Both the position numbers and the translations under genes were made by a program. From Curtobacterium sp. VKM Ac-2922 (GTDB lineage: Bacteria > Actinomycetota > Actinomycetes > Actinomycetales > Microbacteriaceae), in the NCBI RefSeq assembly GCF_022815645.1, contig NZ_JALGRO010000004.1, forward strand, positions 127,436-191,435: a stretch of 64,000 bases of DNA, read 5' to 3'. Position 1 is the stretch's first letter; each line of letters opens with the position of its first letter. A model generated the notes under the pieces. It was not told where the DNA came from. It ran no database searches and saw only the letters and a list, made by a program, of their open reading frames with translations. Below are positions 46,736 through 62,247 of this stretch, one piece after another.

Positions 46736-47401
46736 GTGCGCGACGACGACGACACGGTCATCCGTCGCGCGTCGCAACCCACCGTGGCCTCGACGGACCA
46801 GACCGACGACACCGTGCTGCGAGTGGCTCCCGCGGCAGCCCCGGACCCGTTGGGGGACACCGTCATCCGCCACGCCGGGGCGGTGCGACCCCCGACCGGA
46901 CGTCGGGCCGCCGGTGTGCCGGACGGCCCCCCGGTCCTCCCCGCCCAGGGCGAACCGGTGCGGGAACGCGTGCCGTCCATCCGCGTGGCCGACCGACGCT
47001 TCCGACTCGACCGACCGGTCGTGATCGGTCGGCGACCCGCGCTGCCACGGATCGTCCGCGGACCGGAACCCGTCCTGGTGACGGTGCCGTCAGCGCTCGG
47101 GCAGGTGTCGTCGTCGCACGTGCTCGTCCACGCCGAGGGCGAAGCGGTCGTCGTCCAGGACCTGCGGTCGACCAACGGCACCGTGGTCCGTCCCGCCGGC
47201 GCGCCGCCGTACCGGATGGCGGCAGGCGCGTCGATCGTCGCACTGACGGGTACGGTAGTCGAGATCGGGGACGGCATCGCCATCGAGATCCTCTCGCCGC
47301 ACCTCCGAGCGACTCCACCTGTGGACGGCTTCCCACCGCCCCGTGTGGCGCCCCCGACGCAGTTGACCGGCACGCCCCGAACCACCAGAGAGCGATCCTG
47401 A
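46736..47401 (+). CDS. FHA domain protein
   Basis: 221 residues. FHA domains bind phosphothreonine. The domain (about 85-190) shows IGRRP at its start, SSSH in VSSSHVLVHAEG, and DLRSTNGT, the phosphopeptide-contact residues. The first 50 residues are a disordered lead with three repeats of D-T-V-I/L-R (Thr7, Thr26, Thr42), likely phosphorylation sites or intramolecular FHA ligands, as in mycobacterial GarA where N-terminal Thr phosphorylation switches the protein. GTG start with AAGGGG seven bases before. Opens the phosphatase-kinase genes; the phosphatase starts 3 bases after its stop. Confidence 0.88.
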   Translation: MRDDDDTVIRRASQPTVASTDQTDDTVLRVAPAAAPDPLGDTVIRHAGAVRPPTGRRAAGVPDGPPVLPAQGEPVRERVPSIRVADRRFRLDRPVVIGRRPALPRIVRGPEPVLVTVPSALGQVSSSHVLVHAEGEAVVVQDLRSTNGTVVRPAGAPPYRMAAGASIVALTGTVVEIGDGIAIEILSPHLRATPPVDGFPPPRVAPPTQLTGTPRTTRERS

Positions 47402-47404
47402 CAC

Positions 47405-48226
47405 GTGACCGAACTCGGCCGAGCCGCCGCCGCCCACACCATCGACGTCCCCGGAGCGGGCGGCGCCACGCTCACCCTCTCGTGGGGTGCCGCGACCGAC
47501 ATCGGTCGTCGTCGTGACCACAACGAGGACAGCTACATCGTCGAAGCGCCGTTCTTCGTCGTCGCGGACGGCATGGGCGGGCACCTCGCCGGTGACCGCG
47601 CCAGTGACGCGGTCGTGCGCCGGCTCGGTGACGCAGCGGACGGGCCCTTCGGGTCGCGGCAGTCGATCCAGCACGCCCTCCTGCTCGCCACCGCCGACAT
47701 CGAACGCGCCGCGGGCGGCAACGCGATCGGCGCCGGTACGACCGTCACCGGGCTCGCGCTCGTGGCGGCCGAGGGGCAGCCGGCCGCGCTCGTCTTCAAC
47801 GTGGGCGACTCGCGCACCTACCGGGTCGAGAACGGCACGCTCCGCCGGATCACCGTCGACCACTCCGTCGTCCAGGAGATGGTGGACGCCGGCGTGCTGC
47901 GTGCCGAGGACGCCGAGGCCCACCCGGACAGCAACGTGATCACGCGGGCCGTCGGGTTCGGGGAGCCGCCGGAGCCCGACTGGTGGACGCTGCCGCTCCG
48001 GACCGGAGACCGGTACATCATCTGCTCCGACGGACTCACCAAGGAGATCGGCGACGCCGGCATCAGCCGCATCGCCGCCAAGGTCGACGACCCGCAGGAG
48101 CTCGCCGAACGCCTGGTCGGTGACGCCCTCGTCGCCGGGGGACGCGACAACGTGACCGTCGTGGTCCTGCAGGTCGAGGGAGCACCCGCCGACACCGACC
48201 TCGAGGACACGCTTCCTCGACCCTGA
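47405..48226 (+). CDS. PP2C family protein Ser/Thr phosphatase
   Basis: Cytoplasmic Mn/Mg-dependent phosphatase, 273 residues, catalytic domain only. Metal motifs are RDHNEDSY, VADGMGGHLAGD, VGDSRTYR, CSDGLTKE and GRDNVTVVVL, all present. It would reverse the neighbouring kinase. Unlike mycobacterial PstP it has no transmembrane helix or extracellular part. GTG start. It is followed by an 8-base GC hairpin and a separate -10 box for the kinase gene, so dosage of phosphatase and kinase may differ. Confidence 0.93.
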   Translation: MTELGRAAAAHTIDVPGAGGATLTLSWGAATDIGRRRDHNEDSYIVEAPFFVVADGMGGHLAGDRASDAVVRRLGDAADGPFGSRQSIQHALLLATADIERAAGGNAIGAGTTVTGLALVAAEGQPAALVFNVGDSRTYRVENGTLRRITVDHSVVQEMVDAGVLRAEDAEAHPDSNVITRAVGFGEPPEPDWWTLPLRTGDRYIICSDGLTKEIGDAGISRIAAKVDDPQELAERLVGDALVAGGRDNVTVVVLQVEGAPADTDLEDTLPRP

Positions 48227-48229
48227 CCA

Positions 48230-48260
48230 GGGCCCCCGAACTGGGGGACCCAGGGGGCCC
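48230..48260. terminator. GC hairpin between phosphatase and kinase genes
   Basis: GGGCCCCC (48230-48237) pairs with GGGGGCCC (48253-48260) across a 15-base loop just after the phosphatase stop. Probably a partial terminator. Confidence 0.5.
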
Positions 48261-48301
48261 CTCGTGCCGGTGGGCACGACGGTCCCGCCGAGCGTGGCTC
48301 G

Positions 48302-48307
48302 TAGACT
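48302..48307 (+). promoter_or_regulatory. -10 box TAGACT of the kinase operon
   Basis: TAGACT 51 bases before the kinase ATG, identical to the argS -10. The leader then holds GGAGGAAGG five to seven bases before the ATG. Confidence 0.5.
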
Positions 48308-48357
48308 GGGATGCCGCGACGAACGACTGGCCGTGCCGGCCGGGGAGGAAGGGCACC

Positions 48358-49770
48358 ATGGCGCGACGCCTGCCGTCCACGCCTCCGGTCATCGCCGGCT
48401 TCAGCCCCGTCCACGTCCTCGGGTCCGGCGGTTTCGCCGACGTGTTCCTCTACGAACAGGACATGCCCCGCCGCCAGGTCGCGGTGAAGGTGCTGCTGGA
48501 CGAGGTCGTCGACGACCGGGTCCGGCAGATGTTCCAGTCCGAGGCCAACCTGATGGCCCGGCTCAGCACGCACCCCTCGATCCTGACCGTGTTCCAGGCC
48601 AGTGTCGCGTCGGACGGTCGACCGTACCTGGTCATGGAGCTCTGCTCGTCCTCGCTCAGCGAACGGTACCGCCGCACACCCGTCCCGGTGTCCGAGGTCC
48701 TGTCGATCGGCATCCGCATCGGTTCCGCGCTCGAGACGGCGCACCGAGAGGGCGTCCTGCACCGCGACATCAAGCCGTCGAACATCCTGCTCACGGCCTA
48801 CGGCAACCCGGTGCTCTCCGACTTCGGCATCGCCGCCACCATCGGCGAGGCCGACCCCGACGAGCCCATCGGCATGTCCATCCCGTGGTCCGCACCCGAG
48901 GTCCTGATCGACGAGTCCCGCGGCACGATCCAGTCCGAGGTCTACTCGCTGGCGGCGACGGTGTTCTCGCTCGTCGCCGGTCGGTCTCCCTTCGAGGTGC
49001 CCGGCGGCAAGAACGGCGCGTCCGACCTGATGAGCCGGATCGACAAGGGCGGCGTCAAGCCCACCGGTCGGACCGACGTACCGCCGTCGCTCGAGCGCCT
49101 GCTCGCGACGGCGATGTCGCGGAAGGTCCAGCAGCGTCCGGCCACCGTGATGGAACTCGTCCGTGGGTTCCAGCAGGTGCAGGCCGAACTCGGCGTCCCG
49201 CAGACGCCCGCTGACGTCGCCGTCGAGTCGTGGGCCGTCGCGATGCCGACCCCCGACGGTGACCGCACGGTCGTGCGCGAGCTGCAGCCCCCGTCGCGGG
49301 TGGGCCGGCGGCGCCGGACCCGTCGCGCGGTGCAGGGTGGCGTCGCGGCGACCGGGTCCCGCAGCGTCGGGACCGTGCACCGCACGGGTTCGATGACGAT
49401 GAGCCGCCGACGGTCACGTCGCACCATCGTGTGGGTGTCGACGGCCGCGGCCGTGGTCGTCGCCGCCCTCGCAGTGACGACGGTCATCGCGGTGACCCGG
49501 GTGGGCACGGGCGCCATCCCGACCGTCTCCGACATCCGCGCGTCCTCCACGACGCAGTCCGTCACCTTCCGGTGGTCCGACCCGGGGATCGAGTCCGGCG
49601 ACACCTACGTGATCACCTCGAACGGCTCGTCGAGCCAGCAGTCCGGCACCTCGTTCGTGGTCTCGGGTGCCCGAGGTGACGAGGAGTGCATCTCCGTCGC
49701 CGTCAACCGCGACGGCAAGACCGGGGTGGCGAGCGCCCAACGGTGCGCCACGATCGGCAGCGGATCGTGA
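48358..49770 (+). CDS. Transmembrane Ser/Thr protein kinase
   Basis: 470 residues. Kinase domain about 10-275: Gly-loop GSGGFADVF, VAVK (Lys44), catalytic HRDIKPSN (135-142), DFG (155-157), APE (179-181). The activation loop (IAATIGEADPDEPIGMSIPWS) lacks the TxT autophosphorylation pair typical of PknB. A juxtamembrane part with DGDRTVVRE (Thr304) and many Arg precedes one transmembrane helix (about 356-380). Outside is a single domain of about 85 residues that looks like FN3 (SVTFRWSDPGIESGDTYVI) with one Cys pair. No PASTA repeats, so not a PknB orthologue. Its stop overlaps the giant surface-protein gene. Confidence 0.93.
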   Translation: MARRLPSTPPVIAGFSPVHVLGSGGFADVFLYEQDMPRRQVAVKVLLDEVVDDRVRQMFQSEANLMARLSTHPSILTVFQASVASDGRPYLVMELCSSSLSERYRRTPVPVSEVLSIGIRIGSALETAHREGVLHRDIKPSNILLTAYGNPVLSDFGIAATIGEADPDEPIGMSIPWSAPEVLIDESRGTIQSEVYSLAATVFSLVAGRSPFEVPGGKNGASDLMSRIDKGGVKPTGRTDVPPSLERLLATAMSRKVQQRPATVMELVRGFQQVQAELGVPQTPADVAVESWAVAMPTPDGDRTVVRELQPPSRVGRRRRTRRAVQGGVAATGSRSVGTVHRTGSMTMSRRRSRRTIVWVSTAAAVVVAALAVTTVIAVTRVGTGAIPTVSDIRASSTTQSVTFRWSDPGIESGDTYVITSNGSSSQQSGTSFVVSGARGDEECISVAVNRDGKTGVASAQRCATIGSGS

Positions 49771-52700
49771 TCCGCCGACTCCTCGCCCAGCACCGGTCGG
49801 CCGCGGTCACGGTGGGCGCGTCGGTGCTCGTCGCCGCGCTGGTCACCGGCGCGGCGGTCGTCTCGAGCGGCTACCACACGCAGCGCGTCGACCTCGGTGA
49901 CGGCACGGTGTGGGTGCCTTCGGCGCAGTACGGTGCCGTCGGCCGGGCGAACACCGCGGTCCTGCAGCTGAACACCGCCATCGAGGCCTCCACCGACACG
50001 TTGTCGGTCCTGCAGCGCGGCTCCACCGTCTACAGCGTCGACGAGACCAAGGGCACGATCGCCAAGGTGGACGTGGCCGATGCGACCGTCGGCGACGCGG
50101 TCACGCTGCCGTCCGGGTCACCCACTGTCTTCTTCGCCGGCAACACTGCGGTCATCGGCAACCAGGAGACCGGTGAACTGTGGACCACCCCGACCGACCG
50201 ATTCGAGGAGTTCGACGCCTCGACGAAGGCCGACCTCACGCTCGGCGCCGACGCGGTGTTCGATGCGTCGGACGACCACGTGGCGGTCTACTCACCGAAG
50301 ACGGCGACCGCGTCGCTGGTCCAGCTCGGCACGACACCGTCCGTGGTGCGCAAGTGGCCCGTGCGGATGGACCGTGCGGACGACTTCCAGGTGGCGACCG
50401 TCGGCGGGCACGTGGCGGTGCTCGACCGCACCGACGGCCGACTCGCGATCGACGGCGACACGGTCGACCTCGGTGACCGTGTGGGCAGCTCCCCGGCACT
50501 GCAGCACTCGTCCGGCTCCGGCGATGACGTCGTCGTCGCCGGTGCCGCTGGCATGGTGCGGGTGACGCCGTCGGGTTCGGTGGCTGCCACCCAGCTGGCC
50601 GTCTCCGGCCGTGCGGCGCGGCCGTACGTCGACGGGACCTGCACCTACGGCGCGTGGAGCGGTGGGCAAGCCGTCGACACCTGCGACGGCAGGGCCCTGC
50701 AGCAGCTCGACCGGGTGCCGGGCGCCGCCGCGTTGACGATCGTGCACAACGGCGACACCGTCGTCGCCAACGACCCCGCGACGGGTCGGTCGTGGGCGAT
50801 CGACCGCAGCGGTCAGCTCATCGACAACTGGTCCGACCTGATCAAGCGGGACGACGACCAGCAGCGCGAGCAGGTCTCCGACGACGACCCGCAGGTCGAG
50901 AAGGACCAGAAGCCGCCGGTGGCGGTCGACGACGACCTGGGCGCGCGTCCCGGACGCACCACGAGCCTCCCGGTCCTGCTCAACGACTACGACCCCAACG
51001 GTGACCCGATCGTGATCAGCGAGGTCGACGGCGTCGACCGTGCCGACGGCTCGGTCGCGATCGTCGACGACGGCCAGCGCCTGCAGATCGCGCTGGCCGA
51101 CAGCGCGACCGGCACCGTCTCGTTCCGGTACACCATCACGGACGGCAACGGCGGTTCGGCCAGCGCCGCCGTCCGGGTGTCGGTCCGACCGGAGTCCGAG
51201 AACTCCGCGCCGCGACAGGTCCGCGACACCAGCGCCGACGTCGTGCGCAACGGGCACGTCTCGAGCAACGTCCTGGGGGACTGGGTCGACCCCGACGGCG
51301 ACCCCGTCTACCTGAAGTCGGCCTCCGCGGCGGACGGCGACCAGGTGTCGACCACACCCGACGGGTTGCTGGACTTCCGGAACACCAGCGGCCGCACCGG
51401 CGACCGCAGCGTGCAGCTCGTGGTGAGCGACGGGCGTGCCGACGGTCGGGGTTCGCTGACCGTGCACGTCGCCGCGCAGGGCAACGTGCCCCTGCGTGCG
51501 GACGCCTTCGCCGTGCAGGGGTACGCCGGCAAGGGCTTCTCGGTCGGCCCGCTCGACCACGTGCGGGGCGGGAACGGCACCGTCACGCTCACGAGCGTGT
51601 CCTCGACCAACGGGGTCACGATCGCGCCGAGCTACGACGCCGGGACCTTCCGGGTCGACAGTTCCGCCCTCGGCGACCACCAGGTCGAGTACACCGTGAC
51701 CGACGGCACGAAGACCGCCAGTGGCGTCGTCCGCATCACGATCCTGCGTCCACCGGACGCGTCGACGGCGCCCATCACCACGCCGAAGACCGTGTTCGTC
51801 ACGACGCTGTCGACCAAGGACACCGACGTCACCGCGACCGACATCGACCCGGCCGGCGGCGTGCTGCTGGTCACCGCGCTCGACGGACCGGACCGCGCGT
51901 CGGGGGTGCAGACGAGCATCCTCGACCAGCACACGGTCCGCACCACCCTGACCGCGCCGCTCGACGGCCCGGTCACCTTCACGTACACCGAGACGAACGG
52001 ACTGGCGTCGTCGACCGGCACGGTCACGGTCGTCGAGATCCCGAAGCCGGACCGCATCCAGCCCCCGGTCGCGCAGCCGGACTCCGCCACGGTGCGCGTG
52101 GGCGACGTGGCCGACATCGACGTCCTGGCGAACGACACCCAGCCCGAGGGTGAGCCCCTGACGCTCGAGCCGAACCTGGTGCAGAACGTCCCGGGCGACG
52201 GTGGCCTGCTCTTCGTCTCCGGCGACCACCTGCGGTACCTGGCACCGACGACGCCGGGCAACTACACCGCCGTCTACCGCGTGGCCGGCCCCGACGGGCA
52301 GTCCGCCGACGCAGCGGTGTCCATCTCCGTCAGAGAGAAGGACAACGCCACGAACAACCCGCCCGTCCCGCAGACGGTCACCGCACGGGTCGTCGCCGGG
52401 CAGTCCGTCCGTGTCTCGATCCCGTTGAACGGGATCGACCCCGATGGTGACTCCGTGCAGCTGGTCGGGGTCGCGTCGAACCCGGACAAGGGCTCGGTCA
52501 GCGACGTCGGGTCCGACGCCCTCACCTACGACGCAGGCGACTACTCGGCCGGTACCGACGAGTTCACCTACACCGTCGTCGACGCACTCGGCGCCCGGGC
52601 CACCGGCACCGTCCGGGTCGGGATCGCGCCGCGGGCCGAACAGGCGTCCAACCCGGTCGCCGAAGCCGACCACGTCACGATCCGCCCCGGGGGATCCGTC

Positions 52701-55568
52701 ACGGTGCGGGTCCTGCAGAACGACTCCGATCCCGAGGGCGGACAGCTCACCGTGTCGAAGGCCGAGCCCACCGCGCAGGGTGTCCGGGCGAAGGTGCTCC
52801 GCGGGCAGGAGATCCGTGTCACCCCGCCGAAGAGCGCCACCAGCGGGGACTTCGCGGTGCTGTACACCGCGTCCAACCAGAACGGTGGTGCGAGCACGGC
52901 GTTCCTGACCGTCACCGTGGACGAGGATGCCCAACCCCTCCGGCCGGAGGTCGACGACACCACCCTCGACCTGCAGGACATCCTGCACCGCCAGAACGTC
53001 ACGGTGGACGTGCTGAAGAACGTCTTCTTCGCCGAGGGCTCGACCTCGCAGCTGACCGTCGGCGTGGTCGACGGCTACGGCGAGGACGCGCGGGCCACCA
53101 GCGACGGCAGGATCGTCGTCACGCTGACGGACGACTCGCAGGTCATCCCGTTCTCCGTCGCCCGCAAGGACCACCCCGACATCGTGTCGTACGGGTTCAT
53201 CCACGTTCCCGGCTTCGACGACGCCCTTCCGCAGGTCAACCGATCCGCGGGCGCCATCACCGTCAAGAGCGAAGCGACGGTCCGGATCCCGCTGTCCGAG
53301 TACGTCGTCACGGCGAACGGCCAGACCGCTCGCGTCACCGACACCGGTTCGGTCAAGGCGACCCACGCCAACGGAGACGCGCTGACCGCGGACCGTTCGA
53401 CGTTGGTGTTCACCTCCGCGAAGCTCTACTACGGCAACGCGTCGATCTCGTTCGAGGTCACCGACGGGTCCAGCGCGAACGGCGGCAAGGGCCGAGTCGC
53501 GACGCTCGTGCTGCCGATCAAGGTCGAACCACGATCGAACCAGCCGCCGGCGTTCACCGGTTCGTCCATCGAGCTGCAGCCGGGTGACTCGCGCACCGTC
53601 GACCTGACGCGCCTGACGGACTACCCGTACCCGAAGGACCTGCCGGAACTCAAGTACTCCGTGGTCAGCCAGCCGGCCTCGGGCACCACCGCGACGGTCT
53701 CCGGGCAGCGTCTGACGATCTCGGTCGCCGACACCGCGCAGAAGAACACCACCGCCTCGATCGGCATCGGTGTCGCCGACGCCACGAACGCCGGACGCTC
53801 CGGGGTGGTCTCGGTGGGGATCGTCGCCTCGAACCGTCCGCTCGTGCAGCCGGGTGCCGACAGCGCGGTCGCGAAGCGTGGACAGTCCACGACGATCGAC
53901 GTCCTGGCGAACGACCAGCCGACGAACCCGTTCCCGGACGAACGCCTGCGGGTCGTCGCCATCCGCGGGCTCGCCGGCGGTCTGCCGTCCGGTGTGACCA
54001 TCACGCCCAGCGCGGACAAGTCCCGACTGCAGGTCGCCGTGTCCGACTCGGCGAAACCCGTCAACACCAACCTGCAGTACCAGGTCGCCGATGCCACCAA
54101 CGACCCGGACCGGTACGTCTGGGGCGACGTCACGATCTCGGTGCAGGACGTCCCCGACGCGCCCGGAGCGCCGACGCGCACCGGTTCCTACGACGGCGGC
54201 CAGGTGACGCTCACGTGGTCCTCGCCCCAGGCGAACAACTCGGCGATCACGGGGTACCGGGTCACGGGGACCAACGGCATCGCGAAGGACTGCGGACTCG
54301 CGACGGTGTGCACGATCACCGGCCTGGACCCGAAGGCGACCTACCGGTTCACCGTCGTGGCGGTCAACGGGATCGGCCAGTCGGCCGCGTCGCAGCAGTC
54401 TGCGCCCATGAGTGCCGACTTCGTGCCCGCGCCGCCGAAGGGCATCACGGTGTCGGCGGACAAGTCGACGCCGAACCAGCTCGACGTCTCGTGGGACCCC
54501 GTCGCCACCCCGAACAACGGCACCCCGGTGTCGAACTACGTCGTGAGCATCCAGGGCCCGGGGCTGTCCACCACCAGGAACACCGGCACCGCCACGAGCA
54601 CCACGTTCCAGGGGGCGCAGAGCGCGGCGCAATACACCGTCACGGTCTCGGCGCGGAACGGTGCCGACCGCGACAACACGGTCGTGCAGTGGAACGCCGC
54701 GTCCGCCAGCGGTACCGCCGTCGGATCGCCTGCGAAGCCTGTGTTGTCCGCCACGGGCAACCCGCAAGGCGGCCGCACCGCTGTGAACCTCACCGCGTCG
54801 GAGTCCGACTGGGGCGGGGGCGGGACCTCGATGCGCATCGTGAAGTACCGAGCGGACGCCCCGATCCCACCCGGGTGCTCGACGTCGGGTTCCGAGTACG
54901 TCTGGAACGCCACCACGGCGACGGATCTGATCTCGAGCCAGTACCGCTACGTCGCACTTGCGGACAACGGGCTGTTCTGCACGTCCTCCGACGTCGCGAG
55001 CGTCCAGGGGTACCAGACGCCCGATGCTCCGACGGGCACCGCGACGGTTCCGACCGATGGTCTGCCCAAGCAGGACTACGGCATCACCCTCACCGGTTCT
55101 GGCGACGGCGACTACCTGTACTACTCCGTCAACGGAGGCCCGCGGGTCGGCTTCGACGGCTCCGCAGACCTCGGCTCCGGCGCTGGCTTCGGCGTACCGA
55201 CGAACGTCGTCCTCACGACCTGCGCGACCGCGGACGACTACTGCGCCTCGACGACGCTGCCTGGATCCACTGCGTTCACGACGCGGGCTTCGATCGCAAG
55301 TGCTGTCGAGGGCCAGGCGCCGGTCATCAACGCGCCGAACAACGGCAATGCCGAATTCGCTCCCAGCGCCTACCGCATCGTCTACTGCACGCCTGGGCTC
55401 CTCGGCATCGTCAGCTGCACGGACCAGAAGCCGGACAACGGCGGCGCGTACGGTCCATCCGATGCCGTGCCGGTCGGAGCGGTTGAGGTGCGCGTGAGCG
55501 CTACCGTCGACGGACACACCGACCCTGGGTACGCCAGTCGCGATGTCACCCCGGCAAACGGCAACTAA
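49767..55568 (+). CDS. Giant Ig-like/FN3 surface protein
   Basis: 1933 residues, one membrane helix near the N-terminus (11-33) with about ten cytoplasmic residues, the rest outside. Region 1 (about 40-370) has repeats like VYSVDETKGTIAKVDVADA, resembling a beta-propeller. Region 2 (about 382-1465) carries about ten Ig-like domains marked by V-L-x-N-D-x-D-P-x-G motifs (LPVLLNDYDPNGDPI, IDVLANDTQPEGEPL, VRVLQNDSDPEGG). Region 3 (about 1465-1700) has FN3 domains (TITGLDPKATYRFTVVAVNG). The last 230 residues have several Cys pairs and no recognised fold. No sortase motif or second anchor. GTG overlaps the kinase stop. A sensor, adhesin or wall scaffold is plausible. Confidence 0.9.
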   Translation: MIRRLLAQHRSAAVTVGASVLVAALVTGAAVVSSGYHTQRVDLGDGTVWVPSAQYGAVGRANTAVLQLNTAIEASTDTLSVLQRGSTVYSVDETKGTIAKVDVADATVGDAVTLPSGSPTVFFAGNTAVIGNQETGELWTTPTDRFEEFDASTKADLTLGADAVFDASDDHVAVYSPKTATASLVQLGTTPSVVRKWPVRMDRADDFQVATVGGHVAVLDRTDGRLAIDGDTVDLGDRVGSSPALQHSSGSGDDVVVAGAAGMVRVTPSGSVAATQLAVSGRAARPYVDGTCTYGAWSGGQAVDTCDGRALQQLDRVPGAAALTIVHNGDTVVANDPATGRSWAIDRSGQLIDNWSDLIKRDDDQQREQVSDDDPQVEKDQKPPVAVDDDLGARPGRTTSLPVLLNDYDPNGDPIVISEVDGVDRADGSVAIVDDGQRLQIALADSATGTVSFRYTITDGNGGSASAAVRVSVRPESENSAPRQVRDTSADVVRNGHVSSNVLGDWVDPDGDPVYLKSASAADGDQVSTTPDGLLDFRNTSGRTGDRSVQLVVSDGRADGRGSLTVHVAAQGNVPLRADAFAVQGYAGKGFSVGPLDHVRGGNGTVTLTSVSSTNGVTIAPSYDAGTFRVDSSALGDHQVEYTVTDGTKTASGVVRITILRPPDASTAPITTPKTVFVTTLSTKDTDVTATDIDPAGGVLLVTALDGPDRASGVQTSILDQHTVRTTLTAPLDGPVTFTYTETNGLASSTGTVTVVEIPKPDRIQPPVAQPDSATVRVGDVADIDVLANDTQPEGEPLTLEPNLVQNVPGDGGLLFVSGDHLRYLAPTTPGNYTAVYRVAGPDGQSADAAVSISVREKDNATNNPPVPQTVTARVVAGQSVRVSIPLNGIDPDGDSVQLVGVASNPDKGSVSDVGSDALTYDAGDYSAGTDEFTYTVVDALGARATGTVRVGIAPRAEQASNPVAEADHVTIRPGGSVTVRVLQNDSDPEGGQLTVSKAEPTAQGVRAKVLRGQEIRVTPPKSATSGDFAVLYTASNQNGGASTAFLTVTVDEDAQPLRPEVDDTTLDLQDILHRQNVTVDVLKNVFFAEGSTSQLTVGVVDGYGEDARATSDGRIVVTLTDDSQVIPFSVARKDHPDIVSYGFIHVPGFDDALPQVNRSAGAITVKSEATVRIPLSEYVVTANGQTARVTDTGSVKATHANGDALTADRSTLVFTSAKLYYGNASISFEVTDGSSANGGKGRVATLVLPIKVEPRSNQPPAFTGSSIELQPGDSRTVDLTRLTDYPYPKDLPELKYSVVSQPASGTTATVSGQRLTISVADTAQKNTTASIGIGVADATNAGRSGVVSVGIVASNRPLVQPGADSAVAKRGQSTTIDVLANDQPTNPFPDERLRVVAIRGLAGGLPSGVTITPSADKSRLQVAVSDSAKPVNTNLQYQVADATNDPDRYVWGDVTISVQDVPDAPGAPTRTGSYDGGQVTLTWSSPQANNSAITGYRVTGTNGIAKDCGLATVCTITGLDPKATYRFTVVAVNGIGQSAASQQSAPMSADFVPAPPKGITVSADKSTPNQLDVSWDPVATPNNGTPVSNYVVSIQGPGLSTTRNTGTATSTTFQGAQSAAQYTVTVSARNGADRDNTVVQWNAASASGTAVGSPAKPVLSATGNPQGGRTAVNLTASESDWGGGGTSMRIVKYRADAPIPPGCSTSGSEYVWNATTATDLISSQYRYVALADNGLFCTSSDVASVQGYQTPDAPTGTATVPTDGLPKQDYGITLTGSGDGDYLYYSVNGGPRVGFDGSADLGSGAGFGVPTNVVLTTCATADDYCASTTLPGSTAFTTRASIASAVEGQAPVINAPNNGNAEFAPSAYRIVYCTPGLLGIVSCTDQKPDNGGAYGPSDAVPVGAVEVRVSATVDGHTDPGYASRDVTPANGN

Positions 55569-55590
55569 CCGAACGAGGAGAACTCCCCGC

Positions 55591-56562
55591 ATGAGCATGT
55601 CCCCCGAGCAGGCCACCTGGTTCGCCGACGTCGCCGGCCGCATCGTGACCAACGTCGAGCAGGTGCTCCTCGGGAAGACCTTCGTGATCCGTCTGGCGGT
55701 CACGTCGATGCTGAGCGAGGGGCACCTGCTGCTCGAGGACGTCCCCGGTACGGGCAAGACGAGCATGGCGCGGGCGCTCGCCCAGAGCGTGCAGGGCTCG
55801 ACCAACCGCATCCAGTTCACGCCCGACCTGCTGCCCGGCGACATCACCGGCATCAGTGTCTACGACCAGCGCAACCAGGAGTTCGAGTTCCACCGCGGTC
55901 CGGTGTTCGCGAACATCGTGCTGGCGGACGAGATCAACCGCGCGAGCCCGAAGACGCAGTCGGCCCTGCTCGAGGCCATGGAGGAGTCCGCGATCACCGT
56001 CGACGGCGTCAACCACCGTCTGGCGGCGCCGTTCATGGTCATCGCGACGCAGAACCCGATCGAGCAGGCCGGCACCTACCGCCTGCCCGAGGCGCAGCTG
56101 GACCGCTTCCTCATGAAGACCTCGATCGGCTACCCGGACCACGCCGCGACGGTGAAGATCCTCGAGACCTCGTCAGCTCCGTCGTCGTCCGTGCCCCTGG
56201 CGAGCGTCGTCCCCGCGGCCACGATCACCGAGATGGCCGCCCTGGCCCGGACGGTGCACGTCGACCCGACGATCGCCGACTACGTGGCCCGGCTCGTCGA
56301 CGCGACGCGGTCGGCCAACGAGGTCCGCCTGGGCGTCAGCGTGCGCGGCGCGATGGGGCTCATGCGCGCCAGCCGGGTCTTCGCAGCGCTGAGCGGCCGC
56401 CACTACGTGACACCGGACGACGTCAAGGCCCTGGCCGAGCCGGTCCTGGCGCACCGCATGGTGCTCGACGCCGAAGCCGAGTTCGACGGGGTCTCCACCT
56501 CGAGCGTGGTGTCGCAGCTCCTGGTCGAGACCCCGCCGCCAGCCGACCGGGTCGCGCCGTGA
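55591..56562 (+). CDS. MoxR family AAA+ ATPase
   Basis: 323 residues. AAA+ chaperone-like ATPase: Walker A EDVPGTGKTSMA (about 47-58), Walker B VLADEINRASPKTQ with Asp-Glu, sensor 1 ATQNPIE, then the lid with the GxSxRG sensor 2 region (VSVRGAMGLMRASR). MoxR proteins activate client proteins, usually through a partner with a von Willebrand or DUF58 domain, which is the next gene. ATG with GAGGAG upstream; an in-frame start further upstream lies in the giant gene and is not used. Stop overlaps the DUF58 gene. Confidence 0.95.
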   Translation: MSMSPEQATWFADVAGRIVTNVEQVLLGKTFVIRLAVTSMLSEGHLLLEDVPGTGKTSMARALAQSVQGSTNRIQFTPDLLPGDITGISVYDQRNQEFEFHRGPVFANIVLADEINRASPKTQSALLEAMEESAITVDGVNHRLAAPFMVIATQNPIEQAGTYRLPEAQLDRFLMKTSIGYPDHAATVKILETSSAPSSSVPLASVVPAATITEMAALARTVHVDPTIADYVARLVDATRSANEVRLGVSVRGAMGLMRASRVFAALSGRHYVTPDDVKALAEPVLAHRMVLDAEAEFDGVSTSSVVSQLLVETPPPADRVAP

Positions 56563-57971
56563 CCGACCGGCGACCGGTCTCCACGCGTTCGCGCCGTCCC
56601 TCGTCGACGCGGTCGCGTCGGTCGAGCACCGCGTACGAGCGCACCGGGACGGTCGCCGGCCTGACGAACGTGCGGAGCCGCCTGGTGGGGGACCGGGACG
56701 GGGTCGCGGCCGACGCGGTCGTCGGCATCGTGCGCCTGTGGCGGACGGCCTGGAGGACCGTGGCACGTGCCTGGGACGAGGTCTCGTCCGTGGTCACCGG
56801 CCTGGGCTGGACGGTGACCGCGCTCACGCTGGTCGCGTTGGTGCTCGGGTACCGCTTCGGCCTGCGCGAGGTCGTGGTCGTCGGGTTCGCGGGCGTCCTG
56901 CTCGTCGTCGTCGCCGCGATCGCCCTGGTCGGGCACTCGCGTCTGCTGATCCGGATGAGCCCTCCTGCCCGACGTGTCGCGGTCGGTGACGAGGCCGGCG
57001 TCACGGTGACCGCCGAGAACCCCACGCGCCTGCCGTCGGTGCCGATCACGGTCGAGGTCCCGATCGGCTCCGGCCTGGTCGACGTGGCGATCCCGACGAT
57101 CGCGCCGCGGGGCACGTTCGAACGTGCGGTGCCCGTCCCCACGCTCCGGCGCGGAGTGCTGGACGTGGGCCCGGTGACGGGCATCCGCGCCGACCCGGTC
57201 GGCCTGGTCCGCCGGGAACTCGTCTGGACCGCCCGCGAACAGGTGATCGTGCACCCGCGGACGGTCGCGATCCCCTCGACGAGCACCGGCTTGGTGCGCG
57301 ACCTCGAAGGCCAGGCGACGACGGACCTGTCGCCAGCAGACATCTCGTTCCACGCGATCCGTGAGTACATGCCCGGAGACGACCCGCGGAACGTGCACTG
57401 GAAGTCGACGGCGAAGACCGGGGCACTCATGGTGCGCCAGTTCGAGGACACCCGTCGCTCGCACCTGGTGGTGGCGCTGGGGTTGGCCCGCACGGAGTTC
57501 GCCGACGACGACGAGTTCGAGCTCGCCGTCAGTGCGGCGGCGTCGCTCGGCGCGCGGGCGATCCGCGACGGCCGCGAGGTCACGGTCGTCGTGTCCGAGC
57601 GGACCCCGGAGTTCGCCAAGCGCCCGGTCTACGCGGTGCACCGGCTGCCGACCGTCACCCCGACCCGCCTGCTCGACGACTTCGCGTCCGTCGCCCTGGC
57701 GGACGCCTGCCTGCCCGTGGCCGAGGTCGCCCGGATCGTGGGCACCGACACCGCCGGCATCTCCGTCGCGTTCCTGGTCGTCGGGTCGACGGTCGAGCTG
57801 CCCGCGCTCCGCCTGGCCGCGACACGGTTCCCGATCGGGGTCGAGGTCGTCGCGGTCATCTGCGAACCCGAGTCCGTCCCGCGCTTCGTCCGGGTACCCG
57901 GCCTGACGGTGATGACGATCGGGTACCTCGACGACCTGAGGATCGCGCTGCACCGATCGGCGGCCGCGTGA
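56559..57971 (+). CDS. DUF58 domain membrane protein
   Basis: 470 residues. Basic, Arg/Ser-rich cytoplasmic start (about 1-60), two transmembrane helices (about 85-130), and a large domain with the DUF58 signature DISFHAIREYMPGDDPRNVHW, which is the usual SxYxPGDDxRxIDW type, followed by a von-Willebrand-like fold. DUF58 proteins form units with MoxR ATPases and transglutaminase-fold proteins. Coupled by GTGA overlaps at both ends, so MoxR, DUF58 and the transglutaminase-like protein are made together. Confidence 0.92.
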   Translation: MTDRRPVSTRSRRPSSTRSRRSSTAYERTGTVAGLTNVRSRLVGDRDGVAADAVVGIVRLWRTAWRTVARAWDEVSSVVTGLGWTVTALTLVALVLGYRFGLREVVVVGFAGVLLVVVAAIALVGHSRLLIRMSPPARRVAVGDEAGVTVTAENPTRLPSVPITVEVPIGSGLVDVAIPTIAPRGTFERAVPVPTLRRGVLDVGPVTGIRADPVGLVRRELVWTAREQVIVHPRTVAIPSTSTGLVRDLEGQATTDLSPADISFHAIREYMPGDDPRNVHWKSTAKTGALMVRQFEDTRRSHLVVALGLARTEFADDDEFELAVSAAASLGARAIRDGREVTVVVSERTPEFAKRPVYAVHRLPTVTPTRLLDDFASVALADACLPVAEVARIVGTDTAGISVAFLVVGSTVELPALRLAATRFPIGVEVVAVICEPESVPRFVRVPGLTVMTIGYLDDLRIALHRSAAA

Positions 57972-60445
57972 GCGCCCCGCCCGTCGCACCCCCGCGCCCG
58001 CGGCGGGACACCCGCCGGCAGGCGCGCCGTGACGCTCGCCGGGTCTCTCCCGTCCGACTCGTCGGTGGCACCGTCGTCGTCTGGGTCCTGCTCGCGATCG
58101 CCAGTGTCGCGTGGTGGCCGGTCTACCGCGACCAGGGGATGATCGTCGCCGCGGTCACGGCCGTCGTCGCGGGCACCGCCATCGCCCTCGTCGGCGCCGT
58201 GTACCGGCTCCCGACCGCCGCGGTCGCCGTGGCCACGATCGCGGCCTTCGTGGTGACCGGTGTGCCCGCCGCCGTGCCGAGCGAGGCCGCCGGCCTGCTG
58301 CCCACCGGGCAGGGGCTGCTGGACCTGTTCTCCGGCGTGGCCCTGGGCTGGAAGCGCCTGGTCACCATCAGTCTGCCGGTCGGCACCTACGAGGCGTTGC
58401 TGGTGCCGTTCTTCCTGACGCTCCTGGTGGCCACGGTCACCGGTGTCAGCTGCGCGACCAGGGCCTCCCGGCAGGAACTCGCGAGCATCCCGGCTCTGGT
58501 CCTGTTCGCGGCCGGTGTGGTGGTCGGATCGACGCGGCTCGAGACGTCCATCGCCGTCGCGGTGGCCCTGACCGGGGTCGCACTCGTGTGGGCGCTGACC
58601 GTCCGGCACGTCCGGCGGGCGGCCGCGGTCGCGCGCACCATCGGTGCGCCCGTGGCCGTGCGCCGCTCGGTCCTGCGGCCGGCGCTCGTGGGCACCGGGA
58701 CCATCCTGGCGGCCGCCGTCGTCGCCACGGGCCTGGGACTCGTCGCCCCGCCCACGACGGCCCGCACGGTCGCACGGACCGACGTCGTGAAGCCGTTCGA
58801 CCCTCGCGACTACGTCAGCCCGCTCAGCGGCTTCCGCGCCTACGAGGAGTCGACCGAGGCCGACGCGGCGCAGCTGCAGGTGACGGGCCTGCCGCGCAAC
58901 GGGTTCGTGCGGATCGCGACCCTGGACACGTACGACGGCGTGACCTACCGGGTCGGCGGGACGGACGGCTCCTCGCCCTCGGGCACGTTCGAGCGCGTCC
59001 CGACCTCGGTGGACGTGCGCAACGTCACGGGACGGTCGATCGACGTCGGCGTGCGCATCGACGGGTACCGCGGGGTGTGGCTGCCCACGGTGGGCGACCT
59101 CGAGCAGGTCGACTTCCGGGGGAGCGCTGCCGATCGCACCCGTGGCGCCTTCTTCTACAACGCCTCGACCGCCACGGGCGCCGTGGTCGGAGGTGTGCAG
59201 GACGGCACACGGTACGACCTGCGCGCGGTCGTCCCGGACCAGCCGACCGACGAACAGCTCGCTGCAGCACGGCCGGGGGACGCCACGGTCCCGACGGCGA
59301 CCAACGTGCCGGACGCCGTCCGTGACACCGTCGAGTCGACCGCCGGCGACGTGCAGTCGGACGGTGCGAAGCTCGTGGCCGTCATCAAGGCCCTCAAACG
59401 GAACGGGTACGTCAGCCACGGAGTCGGGGACGACCGGGTCAGCCGGTCCGGCCACGGCGCCGACCGCATCCAGGAGCTGCTGACGTCGCCGCTCATGCTC
59501 GGCGACCAAGAGCAGTACGCCGTGGCCGCCGCGCTGATGTCCGAGGAGATCGGGTTCCCGACGCGGGTCGTGATGGGCTTCGCGGCCGGCGGCGACTCGG
59601 GGACCGGCAGCACCACTGCCGGCGGGTCGGGGACCACCACGTTCCGCGGATCGGACGTCACTGCCCGGATCGAGGTCGACACGGCGCAGTGGGGCTGGGT
59701 GACGGTCAACCCCAACCCGACGGTGCGGACGATCCCCGACGAGCAGCAGCAGACCCCGAAGCCGGTCACACGGCCTCAGACGGTCGTGCCGCCGCCCCCC
59801 GCCGAACAGCAGGACCAGGACACCCAGGCACCACCGCAGAGCGACCGGAACACCCCGGACCAGCCGCCGCTCTGGCTGCAGGTCCTGCTCGCAGCGCTGC
59901 CGTGGATCCTCGGCACACTGGGGTTCGTCGCGCTCGTGCTCCTGCCGTTCGGCGTGATCGTGGCGATCAAGGCGGTCCGTCGTCGCCGACGTCGCCGGGC
60001 CACGACCGCCAGGGGACGGATCATCGGCGCGTGGGACGAGTACCGCGACGCCCTGCTGGACCGCGGACAGGACGTCCCGGTCACCGCCACCCGGCGCGAG
60101 GTCGCCGTGGGAGCCCCCGGCGACCGGGGGAGCGGCCTGGCGGCGCTGGCGGACCGCGCGGTCTTCGGGCCGAGCGACGCCGACGACCACGCCGCTGACC
60201 GGATGTGGGACGCGACCGAGTCCGCGATCGCGCACCTCGGTGCCGGACGCACTCGGCGCGAGCGCTGGCGGACGGCGGTGTCGACGCGGTCCCTGCGGAG
60301 TCCGGTCCACGTCGCGCGCCTGCACCGGGCGCTCGACCGCCGAGCCGCGCGGGTGTCAGCCGGACTCGGAGCGGACGGTGGCTACGATGTTGCAAGGCCC
60401 GCCGAGCGACGCAGCGGGTCGGATGAGGACAGAGGCAACCAGTGA
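57968..60445 (+). CDS. TgpA-type transglutaminase-fold membrane protein, catalytic triad lost
   Basis: 825 residues. Six or so N-terminal transmembrane helices (about 35-265), an extracytoplasmic region with the transglutaminase core (about 450-590), a Pro/Gln-rich linker, a final helix (about 637-660) and a basic cytoplasmic tail of about 160 residues. The core is easy to align (ADRIQELL, GFPTRVVMGF, WGWVTVNPNP), but the catalytic Cys is Gln514 (GDQEQ for GDCEQ), the His is Thr565 (VTARIEV for AHAWVEV) and the Asp is Asn581. It should be inactive and may bind substrate or hold the complex. GTGA overlaps both neighbours. Confidence 0.9.
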   Translation: MSAPPVAPPRPRRDTRRQARRDARRVSPVRLVGGTVVVWVLLAIASVAWWPVYRDQGMIVAAVTAVVAGTAIALVGAVYRLPTAAVAVATIAAFVVTGVPAAVPSEAAGLLPTGQGLLDLFSGVALGWKRLVTISLPVGTYEALLVPFFLTLLVATVTGVSCATRASRQELASIPALVLFAAGVVVGSTRLETSIAVAVALTGVALVWALTVRHVRRAAAVARTIGAPVAVRRSVLRPALVGTGTILAAAVVATGLGLVAPPTTARTVARTDVVKPFDPRDYVSPLSGFRAYEESTEADAAQLQVTGLPRNGFVRIATLDTYDGVTYRVGGTDGSSPSGTFERVPTSVDVRNVTGRSIDVGVRIDGYRGVWLPTVGDLEQVDFRGSAADRTRGAFFYNASTATGAVVGGVQDGTRYDLRAVVPDQPTDEQLAAARPGDATVPTATNVPDAVRDTVESTAGDVQSDGAKLVAVIKALKRNGYVSHGVGDDRVSRSGHGADRIQELLTSPLMLGDQEQYAVAAALMSEEIGFPTRVVMGFAAGGDSGTGSTTAGGSGTTTFRGSDVTARIEVDTAQWGWVTVNPNPTVRTIPDEQQQTPKPVTRPQTVVPPPPAEQQDQDTQAPPQSDRNTPDQPPLWLQVLLAALPWILGTLGFVALVLLPFGVIVAIKAVRRRRRRRATTARGRIIGAWDEYRDALLDRGQDVPVTATRREVAVGAPGDRGSGLAALADRAVFGPSDADDHAADRMWDATESAIAHLGAGRTRRERWRTAVSTRSLRSPVHVARLHRALDRRAARVSAGLGADGGYDVARPAERRSGSDEDRGNQ

Positions 60446-62247
60446 TCAGATGCGAACACTGCGGATCGGTGCTGCCCGACGGAGCGATCTTCTGTGGTGA
60501 GTGCGGTCGAGCCGTGAACACCGCTGCCAGCCGACGGGCCGTCGCTCCCGAGCAGGCCGACCGTGCGACCCCGCCGCCACTCCAGCAGCCCGACCAGCAC
60601 GGACGACGTCAGGACCCCGCGGCCGAAGCCTGGTTGCCGGAGTCCACGCTCGACCCGGCGACGCGCGCCTGGCTCACCGGTGAGGACCGCCGCCGCTCCG
60701 AGCCCGTCGCACCCGTGCCGGTGCAGACCCCGGACACGTTCGCGCCCCGGTCGGCCCCCACGCACGTGCACGGTGCCGGCAGCGGGCTCGGTGAGTGGAC
60801 CGGCGCCGGCGAACCACCCAGGACGGACCGGTCGGGTGCGCAGCAAGGGCACGAGCCGACCCTCGATCCCGACGCGTTCCCCGCGGAGCCCCTGCAGCCC
60901 GAGGACGACCCCGAGGTCACCCGTCTGGCACCACGGACCGGGGCCCCGGCACCCGACGTGGTCGCCCCGCCGGCCGTCGCTGCCGAGCCGTCGGCGCCGT
61001 TCTGGGCCGCACCGCAGGACCCGACGCCGGCGCCGAGCGCTCCGTCGTGGTGGATCGGCCGTCCCGGCGATGACGCCCCGACGACGACCGATGCTCACTC
61101 CGGCGACGGCGACGGTGCTGGTCCGGTCGAGGGTGCATCGGCACCGCCCGCAGGACCGTCGATCCCGGCGTCGCCCGGGAACGGAGCTCCGCCGGCACCG
61201 GACGCGGGTCCGCAGGACGCCAGCGCACCCGTCGATGACGTCCCGGTCGATGCCGACCCCGTCGCGGAAACACCGCGCGCCGGCGACACCGCGGTGGTCG
61301 AACCACTCGTCGAGCGCCGTGCGCCGCGCCCCACGCCCCTGGTCCAGCCCGCGACCCACCCCACGACGTGTCACGTCTGCGGCCACCACCTCGAGCCCGA
61401 CGACATCTTCTGCAACGAGTGCGGCGCGGTCCGGCCAGCGGTGACCGCGGCGTTCACCGGACCGGTCGTGCCGCTGCCGCTCGCGCGGCCGGACTGGGCA
61501 GCGACGGCCGCATCGACCGCCGACGACGCGGTGCTCGACGAGCCGAACTCCGACGAAGCGGTCGAGCCCGACGACGAGGTGTCCGAGCCCGGTGTCGCCG
61601 GCCGTCCTGACGTCGACCAGCTGCGCGTGCCTCCGATGCCGACGTCACCCGCGCCCTCGTCCACCGACCCGCTCGACGACGAGCCCGCGGCCTGGGCTCC
61701 GACGGCGGCGCCGCTGCCGCCAGTGCCGGGCATGCCCGGTCCGGCCCTCCCGACGCGTTCCGCTGACGCGTACCCGTCGAGTTCCGACGCGGACGAGGCC
61801 GCACAGCTCGACGAAGACGAAGTCGAAGACGCGGACGAAGTCGAAGGCGAAGACGCGGATGTGGACGCAGACGCGGACGAGGACGTCGACCAGACCCGGA
61901 TCGTCACGAAGACCCCGGCCCGGGCCCCCTTCATGCTGCACTTCAGCACCGGCGAGCGGATCGGTGTGCACGGCACCGGGCTGCTCGGCCGACTGCCGCG
62001 CGCCGAGCCCGGCGAACGGTTCGACGACCTGCTGACGATCCACGACCCCGGCAAGTCGGTGTCCAAGACCCACCTGGAGATCGGTCGGGACGGGAACGAC
62101 CTGTGGGTGTCCGACCGGTTCTCCGGGAACGGCTCGGTCATCCGCCACATCGACGGCTCGATCCGTCGGTGCGAACCCGGACGCCGCTACCGCGTCGAAC
62201 GCGGCGCGCGGGTGGACATCGGCGAGCAGTTCTTCCTCGTGCAGTAG
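60442..62247 (+). CDS. Zinc-ribbon and FHA domain protein
   Basis: 601 residues. Zinc ribbon 1 at the start (Cys4, Cys7, Cys18, Cys21; CEHCGSV and FCGECGR), then about 270 residues of Pro/Ala/Asp-rich sequence that should be disordered, zinc ribbon 2 (TCHVCGHHL and FCNECGA), another disordered acidic part with an Asp/Glu run (about 450-480), and a C-terminal FHA domain (about 500-601) with LLGRLPRAEPGE, VSKTHLEIG and SGNGS where STNGT is usual. DQTRIVTK just before the FHA domain is a candidate phosphothreonine site. Phospho-dependent adaptor of the cluster by inference. GTG start overlaps the previous stop. Confidence 0.88.
   Translation: MIRCEHCGSVLPDGAIFCGECGRAVNTAASRRAVAPEQADRATPPPLQQPDQHGRRQDPAAEAWLPESTLDPATRAWLTGEDRRRSEPVAPVPVQTPDTFAPRSAPTHVHGAGSGLGEWTGAGEPPRTDRSGAQQGHEPTLDPDAFPAEPLQPEDDPEVTRLAPRTGAPAPDVVAPPAVAAEPSAPFWAAPQDPTPAPSAPSWWIGRPGDDAPTTTDAHSGDGDGAGPVEGASAPPAGPSIPASPGNGAPPAPDAGPQDASAPVDDVPVDADPVAETPRAGDTAVVEPLVERRAPRPTPLVQPATHPTTCHVCGHHLEPDDIFCNECGAVRPAVTAAFTGPVVPLPLARPDWAATAASTADDAVLDEPNSDEAVEPDDEVSEPGVAGRPDVDQLRVPPMPTSPAPSSTDPLDDEPAAWAPTAAPLPPVPGMPGPALPTRSADAYPSSSDADEAAQLDEDEVEDADEVEGEDADVDADADEDVDQTRIVTKTPARAPFMLHFSTGERIGVHGTGLLGRLPRAEPGERFDDLLTIHDPGKSVSKTHLEIGRDGNDLWVSDRFSGNGSVIRHIDGSIRRCEPGRRYRVERGARVDIGEQFFLVQ

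Follow-up and report, generated by a model that had tools for sequence, protein, structure and literature searches.

Threonine motifs in the FHA, kinase and phosphatase proteins of a PFNA-type gene cluster of Curtobacterium as putative phospho-acceptor and FHA-docking sites

Described systems and the Curtobacterium cluster

The PFNA gene cluster of Bifidobacterium comprises pkb2, fn3, aaa-atp, duf58 and tgm, with prpC and fha as optional members, and is described as co-transcribed as an operon in B. longum GT15 (PMC8430577). An eight-gene cluster of this type is present in a stretch of 64,000 nucleotides from Curtobacterium sp. VKM Ac-2922 (contig NZ_JALGRO010000004.1, positions 127,436 to 191,435), which was analysed as a whole and is referred to here as the window. 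In order, the cluster encodes a short FHA protein (FHA1), a PP2C-type phosphatase, a membrane Ser/Thr kinase, a giant Big_9/fn3 protein, a MoxR ATPase, a DUF58 protein, a TgpA-like transglutaminase and a second FHA protein (FHA2). Short threonine motifs, called tags below, occur in FHA1, PP2C, the kinase and FHA2 and are the subject of this analysis. From kinase to transglutaminase (48358-60445) the genes follow the same order as the five core genes of PFNA, where a phosphatase and an FHA gene are also members in some species (PMC8430577). In the window, however, the kinase gene is preceded by those for FHA1 and PP2C, and the second FHA gene ends the cluster. Threonine tags are not mentioned for the Bifidobacterium cluster in the available parts of PMC8430577. 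The Pkb2 substrates reported there include MoxR (PMC8430577), whereas MoxR of the window type carries essentially no tag.

Like GarA, OdhI and DgcB, FHA1 combines an FHA domain of similar fold with a disordered N-terminal tail that carries a conserved Thr. In GarA and OdhI the N-terminal site is a double-Thr (E/D)TT. This form is not found in FHA1, the tags of which are single-Thr DTV[IL]R. Elsewhere in the genome another FHA protein (L001) carries VDTTLTFSM at its N-terminus; we take it to be a GarA/OdhI-like protein in which this sequence replaces the usual ETTSVFR-like site. In the self-recognised tails as given in the DgcB paper, positions -3, +2 and +3 relative to the Thr are hydrophobic, -2 is Glu and +1 is Ser (PMC6733907). 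The self-peptides of GarA, OdhI and DgcB and the FHA1 tags share the hydrophobic -3, the acidic -2 and the hydrophobic +2 (PMC6733907). What sets FHA1 apart is a tail with more than one tag, Val in place of Ser at +1, Arg at +3 and the lack of a GGDEF domain.

Rv1747 of M. tuberculosis has two FHA domains and a disordered linker, and its condensates are promoted by PknF and reversed by PstP (PMC9312465). The likeness to FHA1 lies in an FHA domain combined with a disordered segment and governed by a kinase and a phosphatase (PMC9312465), which for FHA1 is a prediction. FHA1 differs in its single FHA domain, its tag array, the lack of an ABC transporter and in that its cluster also encodes a kinase and a phosphatase. 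In the Hippo pathway, SLMAP binds through its own FHA domain, and the repeated sites of the SLMAP-MST2 system are in the kinase, whereas here they are in the FHA protein. SLMAP binds the autophosphorylated linker of the kinase and recruits a phosphatase complex (SLMAP-MST2-STRIPAK; PMC5663475); that system is eukaryotic and no homology is claimed. A pair of a kinase and an FHA protein is described in M. ulcerans (PMC4238996), and the function of the juxtamembrane segments of bacterial kinases has been called elusive (PMC12077195). Single parts of the arrangement, namely self-binding FHA tails, Rv1747 condensates, a kinase-FHA pair and juxtamembrane phosphothreonines, thus have precedents. In the open-access literature searched, no report of such an array of tags, or of flavours specific to single proteins, was found for PFNA-type clusters.

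Conserved threonine tags in four proteins of the cluster

The FHA1 gene (46736..47401; this and all features below are on the + strand) encodes 221 residues. According to the AlphaFold2 model, a disordered N-terminal tail of about residues 1-77 precedes an FHA domain at about residues 81-187. The tail reads VRDDDDTVIRR...TDDTVLRV...LGDTVIRH and holds three tags: DTVIR with Thr7 (46751..46765), DTVLR with Thr26 (46808..46822) and DTVIR with Thr42 (46856..46870). The initial annotation had read these three sites, together with DRTVVRE around Thr304 of the kinase and DQTRIV of FHA2, as one motif recurring in disordered parts of FHA and kinase proteins. All these positions were confirmed from the sequence; the region delimited in that annotation runs from FHA1 to the kinase, with FHA2 outside it. 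The proposed disorder of the FHA1 sites also agrees with the model, in which the confidence score (pLDDT) is about 50 for the tail (47-54 for residues 1-60) and mostly at least 90 for the FHA domain.

Conservation was followed in 102 loci, made up of the window, 41 named loci and 60 one-per-genus loci. The FHA1-PP2C-kinase synteny test was passed by 75 of them, 35 in set 1 (window included) and 40 one-per-genus; the other 27, some of which are cut contigs while others may lack FHA1, were excluded from the counts. The sets are not wholly independent, as L082 and L051 are apparently one record. One of the 40 one-per-genus proteins is from the genus of the window. Shuffled tails served as the expectation, which corrects for composition and leaves relatedness uncorrected. 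In set 1 the strict tag [DE]T[VI][VIL]R was found in 96 copies in 32/35 FHA1 proteins (shuffle mean 0.15), and the relaxed tag, without the Arg, in 112 copies in 34/35 (shuffle mean 1.6). In the one-per-genus loci the strict form gave 20 copies in 15/40 proteins (shuffle mean 0.08) and the relaxed form 47 copies in 24/40 (shuffle mean 0.9). In its shortest form, [DE]T[VI], the tag is present in 66 of the 75 proteins, with 181 copies where 12.5 are expected. As the counts of the two sets show, the FHA1 tag is pronounced in Curtobacterium and closely related bacteria and more relaxed at greater distance. Two FHA1 tails from loci that failed the synteny test, those of Okibacterium (L052) and Leifsonia (L055), also contain several tags, including ETVIRPRR and ETVLRPD.

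The shape of the array was read from an alignment of 28 of the 35 set-1 FHA1 proteins, near-duplicates and proteins with uncertain starts being left out. The tails carry one to five copies of [DE]T[VI][VILM], spaced by a median of 20 residues (range 9-47). The smallest gap between tag and FHA domain, 0, is an artefact of a misplaced FHA start in L047 by the script. The Thr of the first tag is at residue 7-13 in 19/28 proteins, a position that is partly built in, as the script that picked starts outside the window looked no further than 25 residues ahead of the first tag. In the first copy the columns D6, T7 and V8 are nearly invariant (at least 90%). Over the window positions, the commonest residue reaches an average share of 0.84 in motif columns, 0.46 elsewhere in the tail and 0.74 in the FHA domain. 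Around the Thr of 115 [DE]T[VI] sites of set 1, position -3 is L, I or V in 73, -2 is D or E in 86 and -1 is D in 112; downstream, +1 is V in 106, +2 is I, V or L in 112 and +3 is R in 96.

Recent tandem duplication of the DNA as the origin of the copies was considered and is unsupported for the set as a whole. Third codon positions of tag copies are identical at 0.651 within a gene and 0.634 between genes, and the flanks at 0.398 and 0.399. Tag copies of one gene resemble each other no more than they resemble copies from other genes, a pattern that speaks for selection on the protein rather than recent duplication. The L044 orthologue appears, by eye, to be locally duplicated in longer tandem units.

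The expectation within the genome was obtained with DNA patterns on both strands of the whole 3.73 Mb. The pattern for D-T-V-(I/L/V/M)-R gave 20 matches, against 4 for the control read backwards, and 3 of the 20 are inside the 666-base FHA1 gene. The pattern for [DE][DE]T[IVLM][IVLM]R gave 5 matches, 2 of them in FHA1, and none in the control. The remaining 17 places of the first pattern appear, by eye, to be in folded proteins or in the wrong frame. No second gene in the genome has more than one match to it, and no other multi-copy carrier was found with either pattern. The FHA1 motifs are not a product of chance.

In the kinase (48358..49770), the juxtamembrane tag DRTVVRE with Thr304 is at 49261..49281. 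The corresponding site, [DE][RK]T[RVMQLI][VILA], is kept in 68/74 kinases of the family (shuffle 1.18; one truncated kinase of 75 left out). It is mostly DRT[MV][IV]R in Curtobacterium and DRTR[VIL][RK] in most other genera. FHA2 (60442..62247) carries DVDQTRIV with Thr485 ahead of its FHA domain (61882..61905); the site [DE][VIL][DE]xTR[IVL] is kept in 28 of 32 proteins (shuffle 0.01), a count from which L062, without its C-terminus, was left out and in which 9/41 named loci had no FHA2 match. A fourth conserved site, absent from the initial annotation, is the C-terminal EDTLPRP of PP2C (48203..48223; context LEDTLPRP, Thr269). Its [DEN]T-x-P[RK]-type form is present in 29/35 proteins of set 1 and 7/40 one-per-genus proteins, 36/75 in all (overall shuffle 0.09), and the tag agrees with the Thr(P)-X-Pro motif known from the M. 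tuberculosis phosphoproteome and linked there to inhibition of PknA/PknB (PMC5845002). The family-level patterns for kinase, PP2C and FHA2 were set after inspection of the sequences. The persistence of the sites across the genus and much of the family bears out the conservation in orthologues on which the initial proposal depended.

To examine specificity, the four tag types were scored in a matrix over eleven proteins of the window and the proteins matching them in the named loci. FHA1 alone has the FHA1 type (33/37), and PP2C alone the PP2C type (29/37). The kinase type occurs in 33/41 kinases and in 1/37 transglutaminases. The FHA2 type is in 29/33 FHA2 proteins and also in 8/41 kinases (shuffle 2.9); elsewhere it is at or below the shuffle level, as in 8/42 FN3 proteins (shuffle 8.7). 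The FHA1, kinase and PP2C flavours are at or near zero in MoxR, DUF58, transglutaminase and FN3 proteins and in three control proteins of the named loci. The notion of one shared motif was therefore given up: there are four protein-specific threonine flavours, each largely confined to its own protein in these loci.

FHA pockets, catalytic residues and the proposed phospho-tag mechanism

The residues of the FHA1 pocket (G98, R99, S125, H128, N147 and G148) are present in 75/75 proteins, and those of FHA2 are invariant in 8 chosen aligned proteins; the pocket was defined by G-R, S, H and N-G, the conserved pocket residues of FHA domains. The FHA1 model matches the FHA domain of DgcB with its own tail or with the tail phosphopeptide at Z 13.0 and 12.8 and that of MDC1 with the MDC1 N-terminal peptide at Z 12.3; it also matches OdhI, GarA and FhaA, all of these, with DgcB and MDC1, being within Z 11.8-13.0. 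The top match is Chlamydia CT664 (Z 13.5), and many FHA domains are tied. In the kinase the catalytic HRDxKPxN, the DFG and the AVKV lysine are all present. Its activation segment (48820-48900), DFGIAATIGEADPDEPIGMSIPWSAPE, ends in MSIPWSAPE, so that Ser, not Thr, precedes PWSAPE. Thr is usual at this position in such kinases. Each of the 31 non-empty rows among the 32 of 75 kinases listed has the form [ML]S[IV]PWSAPE. With Ser in the activation segment, the juxtamembrane Thr would be a natural candidate acceptor.

The tags are real, show conservation at the level of the protein, and lie in predicted disordered, terminal or juxtamembrane segments of proteins with intact pocket and catalytic residues. 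From the sequences, a putative function of the tags in accepting phosphate and docking FHA domains is plausible. The reading that we favour, and regard as fairly probable, is that the tags are phospho-acceptors of the cluster kinase, are read by the cluster FHA domains and are erased by PP2C, with FHA1 acting as a multivalent member. It is preferred because of the composition-corrected enrichment and conservation, the confinement of the flavours, the intact pockets and the positions shared with known self-peptides. The membrane kinase of the cluster would phosphorylate all four threonine tags, the two FHA domains would bind them once phosphorylated, and the PP2C would remove the phosphate. With tags on the kinase, FHA1, FHA2 and PP2C, all four proteins could assemble reversibly under the membrane. 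Several tags on a floppy N-terminal tail would make FHA1 multivalent; its FHA domain might bind its own tail, as a switch, or the tail of another molecule, giving a self-assembled chain or cluster, and the strength of the signal would in this way set the size of the assembly. The output would be control of the MoxR, DUF58, transglutaminase and FN3 genes of the cluster. Of the interpretation first put forward, conservation, predicted disorder and intact FHA pockets thus speak for the docking proposal, while its single shared motif does not stand.

A number of observations weigh against this reading. The FHA1 tag is weaker beyond Curtobacterium, as seen in the one-per-genus counts, and nine of the 75 FHA1 proteins lack even [DE]T[VI] within 130 residues of the FHA domain. 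The FHA2 tag is missing in 4/32 proteins (L053, L056, L057 and L059), and only the 7/40 one-per-genus PP2C proteins noted above have the tail site. MoxR, the only PFNA protein named as a substrate of Pkb2 in the available parts of PMC8430577, is without a tag (FHA2 type in 1/37, shuffle 1.9). The FHA1 tags have Arg at +3, where the known self-peptides are hydrophobic (PMC6733907). The correlation of the +3 residue with columns of the FHA1 domain gives no clear answer; its top column is D92, uncorrected for the number of columns and for phylogeny. Other kinases of the genome have, by eye, loosely similar juxtamembrane threonine stretches, and the kinase tag alone is therefore not specific to the cluster.

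The tags could be phosphorylated without docking any FHA domain, the phosphate changing the charge or localisation of FHA1 and PP2C while the FHA domains read something else. Juxtamembrane threonines of StkP are indeed phosphorylated in S. pneumoniae, which is said to lack FHA proteins (PMC12077195). We consider this unlikely for the present cluster, where tags and two intact FHA domains occur together and the FHA1 tag is covalently joined to an FHA domain. Slightly less likely still is crosstalk, by which the tags would be written or read mainly by other proteins, such as other membrane kinases and FhaA/FhaB/GarA-like FHA proteins. The genome has seven kinases above the Pfam cut-off and seven FHA places, and T-x-[VIL] follows the kinase domain in others by eye; against this, FHA1, PP2C and the kinase are encoded side by side in 75/102 loci, and FHA1 stands alone as a multi-copy carrier with the two DNA patterns.

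It is improbable that the tags dock a third partner, for instance the MoxR ATPase or the kinase domain itself, without being phosphorylated. The bifidobacterial kinase is reported to phosphorylate MoxR (PMC8430577), which would fit such a partner, but every one of the four flavours centres on a Thr, and the proteins that carry tags are precisely those of phospho-signalling in the cluster. An artefact of composition or repeats in an acidic linker of high GC content might be suspected from the low-complexity tail and from the apparent longer units of L044. The 96 copies against a shuffle mean of 0.15, with within-gene copies no more alike at third positions and flanks, make it very improbable. 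Beyond phosphorylation and docking as favoured here, a wider proposal can be made only tentatively and is on balance doubtful: the cluster may use a self-contained phospho-threonine code of private flavours, DTV[IVL]R, [DE]RTxxR, DVDxTRIV and EDTxPR, read differently by the two FHA domains, with the FHA1 copy number (1-5) as an evolvable valence tuning a membrane kinase-phosphatase-FHA assembly or condensate that would control the PFNA surface machinery.

The threonine stretches after the kinase domain of the other kinases (L074, L075, L078 and L079) are of the form T-x-(V/I/L), for example DATRVL and AATALIG, and may represent a general juxtamembrane motif in kinases. Another membrane kinase of the same genome, L076 on contig C27, carries ATVVR and QTVIR beyond its kinase domain. 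It lies about 5 kb from a long gene, named by eye as FtsK/EccC-like, with an FHA domain (L004), and the two are perhaps a second pair of tag and reader.

Gene cluster, wider distribution and significance

The products of the cluster were assigned with Pfam. FHA1 contains one FHA domain (22.9 bits against a cut-off of 20.7), and no other Pfam family was found in its 221 residues at E 0.001. PP2C (47405..48226) matches PP2C_2 at 35.3 bits, and the kinase matches Pkinase at 129 bits, with HRDIKPSN and DFG present. The giant Big_9/cadherin-like/fn3 protein (49764..55568) occupies the fn3 position of PFNA. It is followed at the aaa-atp position by the MoxR-type AAA+ ATPase (55543..56562; AAA_3, 214 bits), then by the DUF58 protein (56559..57971; DUF58, 45.7 bits) and, at the tgm position, by the TgpA-like transglutaminase (57968..60445; TgpA_N and Transglut_core). 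FHA2 consists of two zinc-ribbon stretches, a long acidic linker and a C-terminal FHA domain, which scores 20.0 bits in the 601-residue protein, just below the cut-off of 20.7, and 24.7 bits, above it, in the genome search. The closest named locus is that of Curtobacterium sp. Leaf183, where the best-matching segment of the giant protein is 90% identical.

Twenty loci from other families of the order were read by script and by eye. In FHA1-like proteins there the FHA domain is often preceded by DHDGxT[IV], while PP2C tails have TxPR, FHA2-like proteins TR[ILMV] and kinases, related ones being present in these loci, T[RV][VIL]R. The forms were counted in 8/15 FHA1 (shuffle 0.55), 7/13 FHA2 (0.13), 8/9 PP2C (0.12) and 8/14 kinase proteins (0.33), enrichments that are post hoc as the patterns were chosen after reading the sequences. 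The script dropped 3/12 PP2C (L151, L154 and L158) and 4/18 kinases (L144, L154, L155 and L157) at its anchor or length limit. Conservation of the tags at the level of the order is suggestive only. The PP2C of L151 has three TAPR copies.

The transglutaminase query matched 87/159 genomes of the order, including the window's own and its family relatives, a match that alone is no proof of a full cluster; PFNA-type clusters may be widespread in the order. If the favoured reading is true, the tags provide concrete phosphosites and a 2 x 4 matrix of FHA domains and peptides. The one to five copies in FHA1 would form a natural valence series for how repeated phospho-motifs set the size of bacterial assemblies, and the juxtamembrane segments of bacterial kinases would gain a partner logic.

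At its two ends the FHA1 gene has further features. The start codon is GTG at 46736, with the purine-rich GAGAAGGGG upstream. The C-terminus GTPRTxRERS (47369-47398) is kept in many Curtobacterium orthologues, and the DNA that encodes it may also serve PP2C as a ribosome-binding site.

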